Source: Acidobacteriota bacterium (GTDB lineage Bacteria; Acidobacteriota; Vicinamibacteria; Vicinamibacterales; CAVVIG01). From it: DNA of 64,000 nt. Numbering within the stretch: position 1 is the first letter of the stretch; each line of letters opens with the position of its first letter. Shown here in pieces: positions 2,069-26,234 of the stretch. Position numbers and translations under genes: made by a program. The stretch covers positions 318,524-382,523 of the forward strand of contig JADZED010000080.1 in NCBI GenBank assembly GCA_020850715.1. The letters run 5' to 3'. A model generated the notes under the pieces. It had not been told where the DNA came from, made no database searches, and was given only the letters and a program-made list of their open reading frames with translations.

Positions 2069-2149
2069 ATGCGCGCATCGAGCACGTCGATATCGTACGC
2101 ATGCGTCGGGTGACTTCAGGCTCTCCCGCCGGAACTCGAAACGGATCCC

Positions 2150-3004
2150 ATGCGCCTACAACCTCCAACCCGTCTCGGCCTCGGGCTCGCGCTCGGCCTG
2201 CTGATCGCCGCGCCCACGGCGGCGTCGGCCCAGGACGCGGCCGCCTTCTTCAAGCAGAACTGCACGAGCTGCCACACGATCGGCGGCGGCCGTCTGACCG
2301 GTCCGGATCTGAAGGACGTCACCAAGAGCCGCGACCGCGCGTGGCTGACCGACTTCGTCCTGGCGCCGCAGGCGGCGCTCGATCGGGGCGACCCCTACGC
2401 GCTGCAACTGCAGCAGGAGGCGCGCGGCGTGGTCATGCCGCAGGTGGCCGGCATCAACCGCGATCTGGTCTCCGCGCTGCTCGATCTGATCGAGGCCGAG
2501 TCGGCGCTGCCCAAGTCGCAGTTCGCCGGCGTGCAGGTGAGCGACCGCCCGTTCACCGCCGCCGACGTGCAGCTCGGCACCGAGCTGTTCCGCGGCCAGC
2601 GGCGGCTCGGGGGCGGCGGTCCCTCCTGCGTTTCGTGCCACACGGTGCGCGGCACCGGCGGTCTGGGCGGCGGTCAGCTCGGACCGGACCTGACCAAGGT
2701 CTACGAGCGGCTGCAGTGGCGCAAGGCGCTTGCGACCTGGCTGAACGCGCCGCCGACGGCGACGATGCAGACGGTGTTTGCGAAGACGCCGATCGCCGAG
2801 ACCGAGGTGCTGCCGCTGGTGGCGTACTTCGAGGCGGCGGCCAGGAACGGCGGCGAGGACGACCGCGCCGGCCTGATTCAGTTCGTGCTGCTGGGGCTCG
2901 GCGCCGCCGCGCTCGGGCTCGGCGTCATGGATTCCGCGTGGAAAACGCGCTTCCGCAGCGTGCGGCGGGCGCTCGTCGAGCGCCGGCGCGGCGCGAGGTC
3001 ATAG
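2150..3004 (+). CDS. narC: Diheme cytochrome c with N-terminal signal and C-terminal TM (NarC-like)
   Basis: Two CxxCH motifs (CTSCH, CVSCH); directly precedes narG, as narC does in Thermus narCGHJI. Confidence 0.75.
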   Translation: MRLQPPTRLGLGLALGLLIAAPTAASAQDAAAFFKQNCTSCHTIGGGRLTGPDLKDVTKSRDRAWLTDFVLAPQAALDRGDPYALQLQQEARGVVMPQVAGINRDLVSALLDLIEAESALPKSQFAGVQVSDRPFTAADVQLGTELFRGQRRLGGGGPSCVSCHTVRGTGGLGGGQLGPDLTKVYERLQWRKALATWLNAPPTATMQTVFAKTPIAETEVLPLVAYFEAAARNGGEDDRAGLIQFVLLGLGAAALGLGVMDSAWKTRFRSVRRALVERRRGARS

Positions 3005-6000
3005 ATGGCTGCTCACCCGATCCGCTGGATTCGCGACGACGAGAAGGCCGAGCTTAGGAGCTGGGAGCAGTTCTACCGCAACCGGTGGCAGCACGACAAG
3101 ATCGTGCGCAGCACGCACGGCGTCAACTGCACCGGCGGCTGCACCTGGCAGATCTACGTCAAGGACGGCATCGTCACCTGGGAGATGCAGGGGCTCGACT
3201 ACCCGCTGCTGCAGGACGGCATCCCGCCCTACGAGCCGCGCGGGTGCCAGCGCGGCATCTCGTATTCCTGGTATCTCTACAGCCCGATCCGCGTCCGCTA
3301 TCCCTACGTGCGCGGCGCCCTGCTCGATCTCTGGACCGAGGCGCGCGCCCAGCACGAGGATCCCGTCGAGGCCTGGCGCTCGCTGGTCGAGGATCCCGCC
3401 AAGCGCGCGCGGTGGCAGGTCGCCCGCGGCAAGGGCGGGCTCCGCCGGTTCGACTGGGACACGGCGCTCGAACTGATTGCCGCGGCCAATCTCTACACGG
3501 CCCGGAAGTACGGGCCCGACCGCATCGCCGGCTTCTCGCCGATTCCCGCGATGTCGATGATCAGCTACGCCGCGGGCGCGCGGTTCCTGCAGCTGATTGG
3601 CGGCGTCGCGCTCTCCTTCTACGACTGGTACTGCGACCTGCCGCCGGCCTCGCCGGAGGCGTGGGGCGAGCAGACCGACGTGCAGGAATCGGCCGACTGG
3701 TACAACGCCAAGCTGCTCGCGGTGATGGGGTCGAACCTGAACATGACCCGCACGCCCGACTGCCACTTCGCCGCCGAGGCGCGCCACAACGGCAGCAAGA
3801 TGTGGGTCTTCGCGCCAGACTTCAACCAGGTCGCCAAGTACGCCGACGAGTGGATGTCGATCAACGCCGGGCAGGACGGTGCCTGGTGGATGGCGGTCAA
3901 CCACGTGCTGCTCAAGGAGTTCCATCACGAGCGGCAGGTGCCCTACTTCCTCGACTACACCAAGCGCTACACCGATGCGCCGCTGCTCGTCGAGCTCCAC
4001 GACCATGGCGGCGCGTGGCGGGCCGGCCAGATGCTGCGGGCCAACCGCCTGGCCAGCTACGGCGGCGTCGAGAACGGCGACTGGCAGTTCCTGATGTGGG
4101 ACGAGGCGGCGGCCGAGCCGCGGATGCCGGTGGGCAGCGTCGGCTTCCGCTGGAGCCGCGAGAAGGGCAAGTGGAATCTCACGCTGAAGGACGGCCTGAC
4201 GGGCGCCGCGATTCAGCCGGCGCTCACGTTCCTCGAGACCGGCGACGCGGTGCCGGTCTCGTTCGACGATTTCGGCGAAGGGCGGTCGGTGCTGCGCCAC
4301 GTGCCGGTGCGGCGTCTCGCGCTCGCCGACGGCACGAGCGCGGTCGTCACCACCGTGTACGACCTGATGATGGCGCAGTACGGCGTCGGCCGCGGGCTCG
4401 CGGGCGAGTACCCGGCGGACTACGACGACGAGGCGGCGCCCTACACGCCGGCCTGGACGGAGCGCTACACCGGGCTCGGCCGCGACACGCTCATCCGGTT
4501 CGCCCGCGAATGGGGCGAGACGGCGCGCCTGACCGGCGGCAAGTGCACGATCATCATCGGCGCCGGCATCAACCACTGGTACCACAACAACCTGATGTAC
4601 CGCGCCGCGATGCACTCGCTCATGTTCTGCGGGTGCGTCGGCGTCAACGGCGGCGGCCTCGCGCACTACGTCGGCCAGGAGAAGCTCGCGCCGGCCGAGC
4701 CGTGGTCGGCGATCGCCTTCGGCCGCGACTGGCATCCGGCGGCGCGGCTGCAGAACGCGCCGAGCTGGCACTACATGCACACCGACCAGTGGCGGTACGA
4801 GCGCGACTTCACCGACTACCACTCGGTGCCGCCGTCCAACGGCGCGCCGACGATCGCGAAGGGGCACACGGCGGATCTGCAGGCGCGCGCGGTGCGCAGC
4901 GGCTGGCTGCCGTTCTACCCGCAGTTCGATCGCAACCCGCTGGACGTGGTGGCCGAGGCGGAAGCGGCGGGCGCGACGACGCCCGACGAGATCGCCGCCG
5001 ACGTCGTGTCGCGGCTGAAGCGCCGCGAGCTGAAGTTCGCCGTGAACGATCCCGACGCGCCCGAGAACTGGCCGCGCGTGTGGTTCATCTGGCGCGGCAA
5101 CGCGCTGATGTCGAGCGCCAAGGGGCACGAGTACTTCCTGCACCATTACCTCGGGACGCACACCAACAAGCTCGCGGAGGACGTGGCGGGCGACTCGGTG
5201 CGCGAGGTCGTCTGGCACGAACAGGCGCCGTCGGGAAAGATGGACCTGGTCGTCGACCTCAACTTCCGCATGGACACGTCGGCGCTCTACTCCGACATCG
5301 TGCTGCCGGCGGCCACCTTCTACGAGAAGGCGGACCTGAACTCCACCGACATGCACAGCTTCATCCACCCGCTCTCGCCGGCGGTGCCGCCGTCGTGGGA
5401 ATCGAAGAGCGACTGGCAGATCTTCCGCGCCATCGCGCAGAAGTTCTCCGAGCTGGCGCCGCGCTACTTCCCCGAGCCGGTGAAGGATCTCGTCGCGACG
5501 CCGCTCGCCCACGACACCGAGGCCGAGATCGCGCAGCCGGCGATGCTCGACTGGATGGCCGGCGAGGTCGAGGCGGTGCCCGGCAAGACGATGCCGGGGC
5601 TCAAGGTGGTGACGCGCGACTACGCCAACGTCTACAACCAGTACATCTCGTTTGGTCCGCTGGTGCGATCCGGCGGGCTGGGCGCGCACGGCACGCGCTA
5701 CCCCGTCGAGGATCTCTACGACGAGGCGGTCGAGCGGGGCCCGAAGCGGACCTGGGGCGGCGCCTCGTACCCGTCGATTCACGACGACGAGCAGGTCTGC
5801 AACACGATCCTGCGCTTCGCGACGGTGACCAACGGCGAACTGGCGTACCGGTCGTACAAGGCGATGGAGGCGCGCGTCGGCCTGCCGCTCGTGCACCTCG
5901 CCGAGAAGGCGCGGAGCGTGCGCGTCGACTACAAGGGGATCCAGGCGCGGCCGCACCGCTTCGTGAACAGCCCGATGTGGTCGGGGCTGGTGGACAACGG

Positions 6001-6643
6001 CCGGCCCTACTCGCCGTTCACCTACAACGTCGAGTGCCTGGTGCCCTGGCGGACGCTGACCGGGCGGCAGCACTTCTACCTCGACCATCCCGGCTACATC
6101 GATTTCGGCGAGCACCTGCCGACCTACAAGCCGAAGCCGCAGCCGAAGGACTACGCCGACCTGCGCTTGAGCCGCGCCGACGGTCCGACGCTCACGCTGA
6201 ACTACCTGACGCCGCACGGCAAGTGGCACATCCACTCGACCTACGGCGACACGCTCCGCATGATGACGCTGTCGCGCGGTATCGAGCCGCTCTGGATGAA
6301 CGACCACGACGCGGCGGCGATCGGCATCGACGACAACGACTGGCTCGAGGTGCACAACGACCACGGCGTGGTGGTCACGCGCGCCGTGGTGAGCGCGCGC
6401 ATTCCGCGGGGCGTCTGCATCCAGTACCACGCGCCGGAGCGGACGCTCGGCGTGCCGAAGTCGCCGCTGCGGCAGAACCGGCGCGCCGGCGGGCACAACA
6501 GCCTCACGCGGACGCGGCTGAAACCGAACCTGATGGTGGGCGGGTACGGCCAGTTCACCTTCCACTTCAACTACTGGGGACCGACCGGCGCGAACCGCGA
6601 CACGCACGTGCTGGTGCGCAAGCTCCCGGCGCTCGTCTGGTGA
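3005..6643 (+). CDS. narG: Respiratory nitrate reductase alpha subunit
   Basis: [25 protein letters not shown]...[18 protein letters not shown] matches NarG FS0 (His/Cys3); full length about 1212 aa. Confidence 0.95.
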
Positions 6644-21292: not shown

Positions 21293-24049
21293 TCACACCG
21301 CCATCTCCTCCCACCGCCGCACCGAGTAGTGCAGCGGCTTGCTCCACAGGCTCTCGAGCCCCTCGAGGATGTCCGACGCCCAGCCGAAGACGTTGCGCCC
21401 CGCGACCACGCGCCGCATCGCGCGCATCCGTGCACGACGCTCCGCCGGCGGCATGTCGATCGCCGCCAGCAGCGCCGCGGCAAACCCCTCGACGTCGTAC
21501 GGGTTGATGATCAGCGCGTCGCGCAGCTCCTGAGCCGCCCCGGCGAGCGCGCTCAGCACCAGCACGCCGTCCTCGTCCTCCCGCGCGGCGACGAACTCCT
21601 TGGCCACCAGGTTCATCCCGTCGTGCAGCGAGCTGACGATGCAGAAGCGCGCCATCCGATAGAGCGCGACGAGGCTGCCGATGGTCAGCGGCGTCTTGTA
21701 GTAGCAGATGAGCGGCGCGCCGCCCGGCACCGCGTGCCGCCGGTTGAGCGCCTCGATCTGGCTGTCGATCTCCGCCTCGAGCGCGGCGTAGCTGCTCACC
21801 TCCGACCGCGACGGCACCCCGATCTGGATGAAGGTGAGCTGCCCGCGCAGGGCCGGCCGCCGCGACACGACCAGGTCGAGCGCGGCCAGCCGCTCGGGGA
21901 TCCCCTTGGTATAGTCCAGCCGATCGACGCCGATGCCGATGAGCGGCGCCCGCAGATCGAGCAGTGAGGTGAGCCGCGCCTGCTCCAGCGCGAGCGCCTC
22001 GGCGCTCGTGATGTCCTGGATGCGATCGTAGTCGACGCCAATCGGCACCGAGACCACCGTCGTGTCGTGCCCGGCGAACTGGACCTCCGACGACTCCGGC
22101 TCGATCGCGGCGCCGAGCTCCTCCCGCGCCGCCTGCAGGAAGTTGCGCCGGTCGCGCTCGAGCTGGAACGCGAGGAGGTCGTTCGCCAGCAGCCCCGCCA
22201 GCAGCTCGCGGCTCCACGGACAGATGCGCAGCCGATCGGGCGACGGCCACGGGATGTGCCAGAACAGCGCCGTGCGCACGTTCGGCCGCCGCCGCCGCAG
22301 CGCCGACGCGACCAGCGCAAGGTGGTAGTCCTGGATGAACACCGGCGTGTCCGCCGACCGCAGCTCCTTCGCCGCCGCCTCGGCAAACCGATCGTTGATC
22401 TCCTGGTAGGCCGCCCAGTCGTCGGCGCGGAACTGCGGCCGCACGTCGACGACGTGGCAGAGCGGCCAGAGGCCCTCGTTGGCGAAGCCCTTGTAATAGG
22501 CGGCGAAGGTCGGCTCGTCGAACCAGAGGCGGCGCAGCGCGTACGAGGGGCTGTCGGGCGGCACCATCACGGTGTCGTGCGCGTCGACCACCAGCCGATC
22601 GGCCGGCCCGGCGCCGTGGGCGATCCAGACGCCGCCGCGCTCGCGCATCAGCGCGTCGAGCGCGACCGCCACGCCGCCGGTCGACGGCGACGCGCGCAGC
22701 GTGCCGTCGGGCAGCGCGCTGTGCATGTAGGGCTCGCGGTTCGACAGCACCACGAGCGGCCGCCGCTGCTGCGCGCCGCGCTCGCCCGCGCGCAGCAGCG
22801 CGCGGCGGAACAGCAGCGGGCCGGCGAGCTCGTGGATGCCGATCAGCGCGACGACCAGCGCCTGCAGGTTCATGCCCCAGCCGCCGAACTCGCGGGCGAC
22901 GACGGCGGCGAAGCCGAGCGTGATTCCGGCCTGCGACACCAGCCCCGTCCACATGTAACGCCGGCTGTCGTCGTCCAGGACGACGCGTCGCGCGCCGGCG
23001 GCGACGCCCGCTCGAATCAGCAGGAGCCGCACGACAGAGACGGCGACCGCCGCCAGGCCGATGACGGCCGGGGCGTCGATGCGCAGCGACGCGCCGACCG
23101 CCACGAAGAAGATCACGAGCACCGGCGGCGCCGCGCGCTGCACGGCGCTCTTGAGCGCGTCGCCCGAGGCGCTCGACAGGTTCTCGATCACGAGGCCGGC
23201 GGCGACTGCGGCGAGCAGCGGCTCGAACTGCTGCGTGCTCCCGACCTGGCTGAGAAGCGCGCACGCCGCGAGGATGATCAGCGTCGTCTCGCGGCCGACG
23301 TATTTCAGGTACAGGCCGACCAGCGCGCCGACCAGGACGCCGAAGGCCACGGCGCCGCCAATCTCCCACGCGAACCTGGTGAGGACGTCGGCCCCGCCGG
23401 CCTCCGCCCCCATCGCACCGCGCGCGAACTGCATCGACAGCGAGAAGACCACCAGCGCCGCGAGATCGGCCAGCACGACGACGGCGAGCACCGTCTCGCT
23501 CAGCCGCCCCCGGGCGCCCGTCTCGGTCGTCACGGCCGCGGTCATCGTCGGCGAGAAGCTGATCACGATGATGATCGTCAGCAGCACCATGGCGAGCTTG
23601 GGCAGGCCGGCCGCGTCCGGCGCGATCGGGAGCCACGGCCAGACCACCCAGGCGACGGCCCCGGCGCCCGCCATCGCGACCGCCAGGATGATGCCCGTGA
23701 GCCGCACGATGTCGTGGAGGCGGCGGCCGAGGCGCTCCAGGTTGAGCGTCAGCCCCGCGATGAGCGCGATGAACGTCGTCGCGACGCCCGAGATGACCTG
23801 GAGCTGCGACGCCATCGGCGCCGTGATCACGTTGCCGAGATACGGGCCGGACAGGAGGCCGAAGACCAGATACCCGGTGAGCCGCGGCAGGTGAATCCGC
23901 CGCAGCAGGGCGCCGGCAATCGACGCGCCCAGCAGCGTGAACCCGAGCGCCAGAGCCGTTCCGGAGCGCGGCAGGCCGCCGGGTTCGGCCAGCCGCTGGA
24001 CCCACAGAATGCCGGCGACCGCGAGCGCGAGCGCGGCAATCCGCTTCAT
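21293..24049 (-). CDS. Fusion: CPA2-type cation:proton antiporter domain + GT20 trehalose-6-phosphate synthase-like domain (918 aa)
   Basis: N-terminal antiporter (SFSPTMTAAVTTETGARGRLSETVLAVVVLADLAALV); C-terminal GT20 (VFIQDYHLALV, GVDRLDYTKGIPERL, IQIGVPSRSEVSSY, SSLHDGMNLVAKEFVAAR) in one uninterrupted frame. Confidence 0.88.
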   Translation of the reverse strand: MKRIAALALAVAGILWVQRLAEPGGLPRSGTALALGFTLLGASIAGALLRRIHLPRLTGYLVFGLLSGPYLGNVITAPMASQLQVISGVATTFIALIAGLTLNLERLGRRLHDIVRLTGIILAVAMAGAGAVAWVVWPWLPIAPDAAGLPKLAMVLLTIIIVISFSPTMTAAVTTETGARGRLSETVLAVVVLADLAALVVFSLSMQFARGAMGAEAGGADVLTRFAWEIGGAVAFGVLVGALVGLYLKYVGRETTLIILAACALLSQVGSTQQFEPLLAAVAAGLVIENLSSASGDALKSAVQRAAPPVLVIFFVAVGASLRIDAPAVIGLAAVAVSVVRLLLIRAGVAAGARRVVLDDDSRRYMWTGLVSQAGITLGFAAVVAREFGGWGMNLQALVVALIGIHELAGPLLFRRALLRAGERGAQQRRPLVVLSNREPYMHSALPDGTLRASPSTGGVAVALDALMRERGGVWIAHGAGPADRLVVDAHDTVMVPPDSPSYALRRLWFDEPTFAAYYKGFANEGLWPLCHVVDVRPQFRADDWAAYQEINDRFAEAAAKELRSADTPVFIQDYHLALVASALRRRRPNVRTALFWHIPWPSPDRLRICPWSRELLAGLLANDLLAFQLERDRRNFLQAAREELGAAIEPESSEVQFAGHDTTVVSVPIGVDYDRIQDITSAEALALEQARLTSLLDLRAPLIGIGVDRLDYTKGIPERLAALDLVVSRRPALRGQLTFIQIGVPSRSEVSSYAALEAEIDSQIEALNRRHAVPGGAPLICYYKTPLTIGSLVALYRMARFCIVSSLHDGMNLVAKEFVAAREDEDGVLVLSALAGAAQELRDALIINPYDVEGFAAALLAAIDMPPAERRARMRAMRRVVAGRNVFGWASDILEGLESLWSKPLHYSVRRWEEMAV

Positions 24050-24966
24050 CGATCCGGGCTCCGGGCGGCATGGAACGTGTCGGCAATCGCCGAGGTGAGC
24101 ACGAGCACCGAGAGCAGGCTTGCGACCGCCGCCGATCCGCCGCGGGCCCCATCCATCGCGACCACGATGGCGAAGCCGAGCGGCGCCAGCGGCCACGCGT
24201 CGCTGTCGCCCGCCCGCACGGTCCAGCGGCCCCACGTCAACCGCGAGAGCAGCGCCGTGAGACAGATGAGGGCCGCGGCCGCGGCCGCGACACGCCACGA
24301 CACGTGGGCCGTGGCGCCCGCGATGACGAGCAGCAGCGCGACGATCGGATGCTGGAAGTGCACCGCCTCGGCGGCGATGCCCTGCATCCGCCGCCTGCGC
24401 AGCAGCGTCCAGGTGCCGGCCGCGATCCAGCCGACCAGCAGGCCCGAGACGGTGAGATACTCCGCCACGCCGCCGAGCAGCAGCAGCGTGGCGATCCAGA
24501 ACACCCGCCGCGACTCTTCGGCATCATCGTCGCCAGCGGTCAGGATCCAGCCGGCGCCGGCGACGACGATCGCGATCGCGCAGGCCTGGCCGGTGAGGAC
24601 GAGCGCGCGCGAGGGCGGATGCTGCTGGAACGACAGCGCGAGGCCGACGAGCACGATCGCCGCCGACGGCACCACGCCCGGCCGCGCGTCGAACGGCGCG
24701 GCGTCGTCGCGGCGGCCGAAGATCGTCAGCGCGCCGATCAGCGCCAGCGCCACCGGCACCGCCGGCTTCAGCAGCGCGAGCACGTCTGGAGTGAGCAGGG
24801 CGAGCCCTTGCGGACCGAGCGCGATCCCTGCCGCCAGCAGCAGCGACGCCTGCGAGGAGACGCTCGTCCAGCCGTTCGATTGCGTGCCGATCTGCTGGAT
24901 GTGCAGATCCAGCGGATCGGGTTCGCCCGTGGCGAGCGGCGAGCGGTAAGGAGCGAGAATGTTCAT
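24046..24966 (-). CDS. Polytopic membrane protein of unknown function, coupled to the antiporter-GT20 gene
   Basis: Multiple hydrophobic helices; ATGA overlaps at both ends. Confidence 0.75.
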   Translation of the reverse strand: MNILAPYRSPLATGEPDPLDLHIQQIGTQSNGWTSVSSQASLLLAAGIALGPQGLALLTPDVLALLKPAVPVALALIGALTIFGRRDDAAPFDARPGVVPSAAIVLVGLALSFQQHPPSRALVLTGQACAIAIVVAGAGWILTAGDDDAEESRRVFWIATLLLLGGVAEYLTVSGLLVGWIAAGTWTLLRRRRMQGIAAEAVHFQHPIVALLLVIAGATAHVSWRVAAAAAALICLTALLSRLTWGRWTVRAGDSDAWPLAPLGFAIVVAMDGARGGSAAVASLLSVLVLTSAIADTFHAARSPDR

Positions 24967-26234
24967 CGGGAGAGCGTCACCAGCAGATGTTCCGCGCCGC
25001 GCACGACGACCAGGAGCGTCGTGCCGCCTCCGCCCGCGGCCTCGATCTGGCGGCGGACCTGCTCGGGAGTCGGCGCCGCGTCCGCGCCCGCGCGGACGAT
25101 CACGTCGTTCGCCCGCAGCCCGGCGCGGTCGGCGGCACTGCCGGCTGTCACGCGTACGACGCGCGAGCCGACGCGCGCGGCGCGCGCGAGCCGCAGGCCG
25201 GGATCGCCCGACTCCGCGGCCGGCGCCGGGGCGGCCGGCTCGGGCGGCGGCGACGCGATCACCGTGACGTCGAGCACCTCGCCGCCCCGGCGCACGCGCA
25301 GGACGGCGGCCGCGCCCGCGGCGAGACGTTCCGCGCGGACGCGCCACTCGAACGTCGTCGCCACGCTCTGTCCGTCCACCATTTCGACGACGTCGCCGAT
25401 CGACACCACGCCCGCAGCCGGGCCGTCGACGCCGTCCACGACGACGCCCCCCGGCGATCCGGTCGCCGCGGCGAGCGCCGGCGTCAGCGCCCGCACCGAC
25501 ATGCCGAGAGAGCCAGGCGCCGCGCCAGGCGCATCGAGCATCCGCTGCGCGCGATCGCGCAGCGCCCGTGCGGGGACGATCAGCGATTGCCCTTCTTCGT
25601 CCAGCGCCATGCCGAGCCACTCGCCCGCGGCGTTGAAGACGAAGCTGCCGCCCGCCAGCCGGATGCCATCGGGTGCGCGCCACACGGCGGTGGACCAGGC
25701 CGGGCTGCGGACCGCGTTGAGGCCGTCGACATAGAACGGCGCGATCGTCAGCCGGCCGGTCGGGGCGGAGGCGAACAGATAGGTCGGGGCATCGATGGCG
25801 GCCGGCTCCCAGGTGCGCCGCGGCGCAGGATTCGACCCCGCGCGTATCACGCCAAGCCCGGTCGGCCGGTCGACGGCGAGCACCGAATCGTCGCGGGCCG
25901 CCTCGTCAGGCAGGCGCAGCAGCGCCACGTCGTCTCGGAGCGGCCAGGCCCAGGCGGCCAACCCCTCGTCTGACGACCCGCCTCGGGCGCTGCGCGGTAC
26001 CGGGACGAGGGACGCCGCGATGCGCCCCTTCACCTCTTCGAGCTGATCGGCCAGATCGGCGAAGGTTGCCGGCCGGCTGATCTGTGTGAGCACCGGCGCC
26101 ACCGGGCTCTGGAGCGGCGCGTCGGGGAAGCGGAGCCTCGCGAGAACCCACAGACACACCAGCGCCAGCGCCGCGGCCGTGATGAGCCGCCTGGTGTCGC
26201 GCGAGACCCTCGGTCTCGAATCTCCGTCCAGCAT
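24963..26234 (-). CDS. Membrane-anchored HtrA-like protein with two PDZ domains, predicted protease-inactive
   Basis: N-terminal TM; trypsin-like remnant RLAGGSFVFNAAGEWLGM (GNSGG Ser replaced); two PDZ domains (LGMSVRALTPAL..., GLRLARAARVGSRVVRVTAGSAADRAGLRANDVIV). Confidence 0.75.
   Translation of the reverse strand: MLDGDSRPRVSRDTRRLITAAALALVCLWVLARLRFPDAPLQSPVAPVLTQISRPATFADLADQLEEVKGRIAASLVPVPRSARGGSSDEGLAAWAWPLRDDVALLRLPDEAARDDSVLAVDRPTGLGVIRAGSNPAPRRTWEPAAIDAPTYLFASAPTGRLTIAPFYVDGLNAVRSPAWSTAVWRAPDGIRLAGGSFVFNAAGEWLGMALDEEGQSLIVPARALRDRAQRMLDAPGAAPGSLGMSVRALTPALAAATGSPGGVVVDGVDGPAAGVVSIGDVVEMVDGQSVATTFEWRVRAERLAAGAAAVLRVRRGGEVLDVTVIASPPPEPAAPAPAAESGDPGLRLARAARVGSRVVRVTAGSAADRAGLRANDVIVRAGADAAPTPEQVRRQIEAAGGGGTTLLVVVRGAEHLLVTLSR

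Follow-up and report, generated by a model that had tools for sequence, protein, structure and literature searches.

Introduction

The handover from K+ accumulation to organic osmolytes such as trehalose is usually viewed as a matter of transcriptional regulation or of free cytosolic signals. Here we describe a three-gene operon in which an ion exchanger has been kept at one locus with the committed enzyme of the trehalose pathway and, within one taxonomic order, covalently joined to it; should the two prove to be coupled, a single protein would give access to the switch between ions and osmolytes. The operon lies on the minus strand of a 64,000-nucleotide stretch of Acidobacteriota DNA (contig JADZED010000080.1, positions 318,524 to 382,523; hereafter the window, to which all coordinates refer) from the 3.6-Mb metagenome-assembled genome (MAG) of a soil bacterium, which is 94% complete. 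Its genes encode P0001, a membrane-anchored pseudo-HtrA with two PDZ domains; P0002, a divergent paralog of CPA2 antiporters; and P0003, a CPA2 antiporter fused to a GT20 trehalose-6-phosphate (T6P) synthase.

The individual parts are all members of known superfamilies. KefC of Escherichia coli resembles P0003 in its CPA2 fold, ion-binding Asp, basic residue in transmembrane helix (TM) 11 and soluble domain directly after the transporter; in KefC this is an RCK domain, which regulates transport (PMC11150392), whereas in P0003 it is a T6P synthase. The partner of KefC is KefF, while here there is a second antiporter-like subunit together with the pseudo-HtrA. OtsA and OtsB of E. coli correspond to the synthase half of P0003 and to a gene near many of its relatives, but P0003 is fused to an antiporter and scores below the NCBIfam cut-off for OtsA, and otsB was not found in the source genome. 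DegP and DegQ share with P0001 the HtrA fold and two PDZ domains, and DegS shares its N-terminal anchor; P0001 differs from all three in the replacement of the Ser and Asp equivalents and in its link to an antiporter operon. In Geobacter sulfurreducens an Mrp antiporter cluster (GSU2338-2344) stands beside OtsB/OtsA (GSU2336-2337) (PMC2700814). There too, judging by the locus numbers, a cation/H+ antiporter adjoins a T6P synthase and phosphatase; however, the Mrp antiporter is unrelated, multi-subunit and encoded by separate genes, with no fusion and no PDZ protein. We found no description of an antiporter-T6P synthase fusion, of heteromeric CPA2 pairs (including any with one degenerate subunit) or of trehalose and antiporters in Vicinamibacter in the literature searched, in which subscription journals were sparsely covered, nor any of the combination of antiporter, T6P synthase in the regulatory position, degenerate partner and pseudo-HtrA.

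Results

A CPA2 antiporter fused to a T6P synthase

P0003 (21293..24049; 918 aa) consists of two complete modules. The N-terminal half is spanned by a Na_H_Exchanger domain (PF00999, residues 40-398, 22856..23932; E 1.9e-28, 99.8 bits against a cut-off of 26.2). When KefC was aligned end to end (global mode) with a profile built from 72 relatives (E 3.5e-11), Asp195 of P0003 (codon 23465..23467) fell on Asp156, the ion-binding residue of KefC, and Arg341 (codon 23027..23029) fell on Lys307 (for the roles of the two KefC residues see PMC11150392). Both positions are well conserved: the first is Asp in 23 of 27 fused and 41 of 45 unfused relatives, and the second is Arg in 26 of 27 and 45 of 45, respectively. 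With domain, ion-binding Asp and TM11 basic residue all present, P0003 is assigned to CPA2 and predicted to transport. Its ion-binding motif is AD, where that of KefC is QD and that of NapA is DD; as P0003 lacks the second Asp found in NapA (the charged partner for the basic residue), exchange is predicted to be electroneutral, by the reasoning of PMC11150392. Comparison of the antiporter profile (A3) with PDB sequences returned armadillo-repeat matches only, which we judged to be chance. The source genome contains three PF00999 genes, P0003 among them.

The C-terminal half is a GT20 domain (PF00982, residues 433-899, 21353..22753; E 2.4e-105) that matches solved OtsA/Tps1 structures with a best E of 5e-80. 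All 11 E. coli OtsA residues checked (R9, G22, Y76, W85, D130, H154, R262, K267, R300, D361 and E369) are identical in P0003 and in every fused relative scored; from OtsA structures we take these to be substrate and catalytic positions, the alignment positions having been computed here. Although the score against the OtsA equivalog TIGR02400 (404 bits) is under its cut-off of 565, it is far better than that against glucosylglycerol-phosphate synthase (269 bits). The conserved residues and the neighboring otsB genes together point to synthesis of T6P from UDP-glucose and glucose-6-phosphate as the probable reaction, acceptor specificity included. A search of the source genome with P0003 returned P0003 alone, making this the only GT20 gene found there.

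The surroundings of the fusion bear out the link to osmolyte synthesis proposed in a preliminary description of this DNA, which had been made from the sequence alone. Of the 28 fusions, 15 have otsB within 5 kb, 11 of them with otsB downstream and on the same strand (two of the 15 otsB neighbors were reconfirmed by Pfam), and in two genomes treZ-treY stands directly upstream of the fusion operon. TreY is also present in the source genome.

The second gene encodes a degenerate paralog of the antiporter

P0002 (24046..24966; 306 aa) had been described as a multi-TM protein of unknown kind, and the window copy alone has no significant match in Pfam. Its family (hereafter MEM; the family of the P0003 antiporter half is termed AP and that of P0001 PDZ) is more informative. 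A profile of vicinamibacterial MEM proteins aligns with the antiporter profile at an E of 8.5e-9 (hhalign), a phylum-wide MEM profile does so at 6.5e-20 over 362 columns, and 5 of the 14 proteins in the phylum-wide alignment have a PF00999 match of their own (best 3.8e-19). In full-length vicinamibacterial MEM proteins there is typically a DD motif, and the ion-binding Asp of the antiporters aligns with its second residue. The helix that bears this motif is gone from P0002, removed with about 85 aa by an internal deletion that keeps the reading frame (alignment A1). P0002 can thus be classed, through its family and not from the window sequence alone, as a divergent CPA2 antiporter paralog; with its own ion-binding Asp motif absent, P0002 itself is best regarded as a relative of antiporters.

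Structure prediction is consistent with this placement, the plausible Foldseek matches of the AlphaFold model (pLDDT 80) being PaNhaP, NapA, KefC and NHA2; their E values of 0.2-0.9 are weak, and a fold search with the truncated protein proves nothing by itself. Two other assignments were rejected: that of a novel or orphan family, as profile comparison returns antiporters, and that of a relative of apolipoprotein N-acyltransferase (LNT_N, E 0.009), as no other family member shares the match. The MEM profile had no match among PDB sequences.

P0001 is a pseudoprotease

P0001 (24963..26234; 423 aa) comprises an N-terminal TM helix (residues 12-35), a degenerate trypsin-like HtrA beta fold and two PDZ domains, the first matched by PF13180 (residues 241-325, 25260..25514) and the second by PF17820 and HtrA-family profiles (about residues 354-417, 24984..25175). 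It matches a DegP/DegQ profile with an E of 1.8e-37, and its AlphaFold model (pLDDT 83) matches DegQ in Foldseek (E 5e-18). The equivalents of the catalytic Ser and Asp are both Gly (G195 and G126), and the Ser is absent from all aligned PDZ relatives bar one (L152). With an HtrA fold and PDZ domains but neither catalytic Ser nor Asp, P0001 is a pseudoprotease, and its earlier designation as a pseudo-HtrA with two PDZ domains holds.

A PDZ or pseudo-HtrA-like gene also stands directly upstream of genes of another CPA2-like family, in which Asn occupies the position of the ion-binding Asp (L159-L162, from genomes G044, G033, G034 and G036, respectively); from these neighborhoods the pairing of a pseudo-HtrA with an antiporter-like protein is wider than the present operon.

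The operon is conserved and the fusion is restricted

Among the 193 genomes of the class the fusion was found at full length in 28, with a further fragment in another (G091); these and the other distribution searches are samples of genomes. MEM lies directly upstream of the fused antiporter in all 27 fused loci with sequence at that place, and a PDZ gene precedes MEM in 24 of 26. Unfused loci of the class have PDZ, MEM and antiporter without exception (18 of 18), many of them beside iscR/iscS/iscA. Of 20 loci sampled from elsewhere in the phylum, at least 12 have a MEM-like gene immediately before the antiporter: the MEM-AP pair spans Acidobacteriota. A fusion to GT20, on the other hand, was seen outside Vicinamibacterales neither in a sample of 396 genomes of the phylum nor among the 80 best hits of a non-exhaustive GTDB scan, and of 31 genomes, most of them from other phyla, only two contained antiporter relatives, which were weak. 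The close relatives of the window that carry names are MAGs of Acidobacteriota/Vicinamibacterales. The preliminary description had staked its view of one conserved cassette, with an antiporter-GT20 fusion, on co-occurrence of the three genes in other genomes. Dozens of genomes do keep the trio together, the Pfam domains and the gene order agree with that view, and chance adjacency of unrelated genes is rejected by an order kept over so many genomes.

The three open reading frames meet in two ATGA overlaps, one joining the P0001 stop to the P0002 start (24963..24966) and the other the P0002 stop to the P0003 start (24046..24049), exactly where they had been placed. Such overlaps are not rare (58 of 289 same-strand neighbor pairs in the loci analyzed, or about one in five, overlap by 4 nt), so a single one is weak evidence. 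Conservation of the junctions across lineages is stronger: with gene starts in relatives set by a simple script, the overlap of 4 nt recurs at the MEM/AP junction in 21 of 23 scored fused loci (window excluded) and at the PDZ/MEM junction in all 16 scored fused relatives. Fixed stoichiometry, which had been read from the overlaps, does not follow from an overlap.

The genes brought together by the fusion probably stood at one locus beforehand, because GT20 stands free in the same isc-linked setting as the antiporter loci in families f8 and f14 (64-69% identity to the fused GT20 in those measured) and also occurs beside the trio itself: in G093 (L211) otsB and the GT20 gene are divergent next to an unfused PDZ-MEM-antiporter locus. 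The fusion may have arisen once or twice. In both AP and GT20 trees the fusions of family f10 sit apart from the main clade, which suggests two origins, while approximately unbiased (AU) tests do not reject a single one (p 0.28-0.33).

Loss of the ion-binding Asp is asymmetric

Unfused loci of the class retain the key Asp in both subunits (18 of 18). In fused loci, by contrast, the key acidic residue of MEM, the second Asp of DD, is lost from 14 of 26, including the window, and is replaced by Glu in one further locus. On the AP side Asp is lost only in four loci, all of family f10, which have Gln or Glu instead; the three of these with a readable MEM all keep DD. In no scored locus have both subunits lost it. 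Such asymmetry is what would be expected of a heteromer in which one site is required.

Other modules occupy the C-terminal slot

Relatives of the antiporter carry different domains in the place of GT20. The C-terminus of L251 is TrkA_N/RCK-like, though just below the Pfam cut-off (22.9 bits against 23.8). L219 (G116; minus strand, 2116-6060), which has a MEM gene upstream, ends in an Ion_trans channel (PF00520, E 4e-34), an exchanger-channel fusion reminiscent of SLC9C1. A close homolog of this fusion occurs in L218 (G117), where masked bases truncate the tail. In L243, L244 and L250 (G335, G404 and G432) the antiporter has C-terminal tails of about 1000 residues with AAA/STAND-like ATPase motifs; between MEM and antiporter L243 contains trkA and trkH, a hint, from one genome, that the ion may be K+. 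Together, GT20, RCK-like, ion-channel and AAA/STAND-like domains on one antiporter scaffold form a natural series for studying how cytosolic domains gate CPA2 exchangers.

Discussion

Sequence comparison supports well the architecture of the operon and its conservation, the intact synthase residues and antiporter Asp, the dead protease and the degeneracy of P0002. From these we infer a single membrane complex: a heteromeric CPA2 exchanger equipped with a working T6P synthase module, in which ion exchange is coupled to trehalose synthesis. P0002 and the N-terminal half of P0003 would pair as paralogous subunits, P0002 being non-catalytic and P0003 contributing the single ion-binding Asp; the exchange would be of a cation, probably K+, for H+, and electroneutral. 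The T6P synthase, complete and cytosolic, would occupy the position of the RCK domain of KefC and be coupled, in whichever direction, to the exchanger, while P0001, anchored in the inner membrane, proteolytically dead and facing the periplasm, might provide an envelope signal or a scaffold. Under osmotic or drying stress such a complex would tie cation exchange to T6P synthesis, ions being traded for trehalose. The reading draws on the conserved trio, the paralogy of MEM and antiporter, the intact GT20 residues, the otsB and treZ-treY neighbors, the asymmetric loss of Asp, the regulatory-type modules found in the same C-terminal slot and the regulation of KefC by its RCK domain; we give it a little under an even chance. 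A more specific version, in which a heteromer made up of a working and a degenerate subunit either gates the covalently attached synthase directly or is itself gated by it, with the pseudo-HtrA as periplasmic sensor, so that ion flux switches the synthesis of a compatible solute, is tentative and rather doubtful.

Several observations weigh against a coupled complex. OtsB (PF02358) was not detected in the source genome, a MAG of the completeness given above, so that T6P may there have a fate other than the usual conversion to trehalose, although TreY is present; TrkH (PF02386) was not found there either. Two fused loci (G031 and G043) lack the PDZ gene and have treZ-treY in its place (each of these genomes has another PDZ-MEM-antiporter locus, unfused, at a different site); the osmosensing role suggested earlier for the PDZ protein is not supported. 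The rule that Asp is never lost from both subunits rests on few independent events, and family f10, having lost Asp from the fused half and kept GT20, indicates that transport by that half is not always needed.

The f10 loci favor, for that family, a tethering or a sensor role. Tethering would mean that the fusion merely holds the T6P synthase at the membrane, or close to OtsB and the envelope, without any signal passing between antiporter and enzyme; GT20 can evidently work without an antiporter, as it is free-standing in sister lineages (L220-L232), and f10 retains it beside an antiporter devoid of the ion-binding Asp. Yet the partner is always of the same antiporter family and always accompanied by MEM, and the same slot holds regulatory-type domains in relatives, which leaves tethering unlikely as a general explanation. 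A sensor role could take two forms. GT20 might itself gate the antiporter in the manner of an RCK domain, the occupancy of its site by UDP-glucose or glucose-6-phosphate setting ion flux and T6P being secondary; it has the position of RCK in KefC, the near-threshold RCK-like C-terminus of L251 offers a parallel, and the three genomes in which OtsB was not found (the source genome, G019 and G109) are in keeping with it. Full conservation of the catalytic residues in all scored fused relatives, however, along with the frequency of otsB neighbors, argues that product formation matters, and we consider this form improbable. Alternatively, the antiporter halves might sense ions or pH without any transport ("transceptors") and turn on the synthase, while other antiporters, such as the two further PF00999 genes of the source genome, carry out bulk exchange. 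The losses of Asp from MEM and from f10 antiporters would fit, but P0003 and most other fused proteins retain Asp195 and Arg341, and no scored locus has lost Asp from both subunits, making this form highly improbable.

Two further sets of genes may be mentioned. In L238 and L252 (G523 and G372) the gene directly upstream of MEM encodes proteins that are alike at the C-terminus, the L238 copy containing an EIIA domain of the phosphotransferase system (PF00359), a possible regulatory link. Next to the operon in the window lie genes for a divergent lipocalin-like protein (PF13924; 26415-27494) and for a penicillin-amidase family protein (PF01804; 28090-30447).

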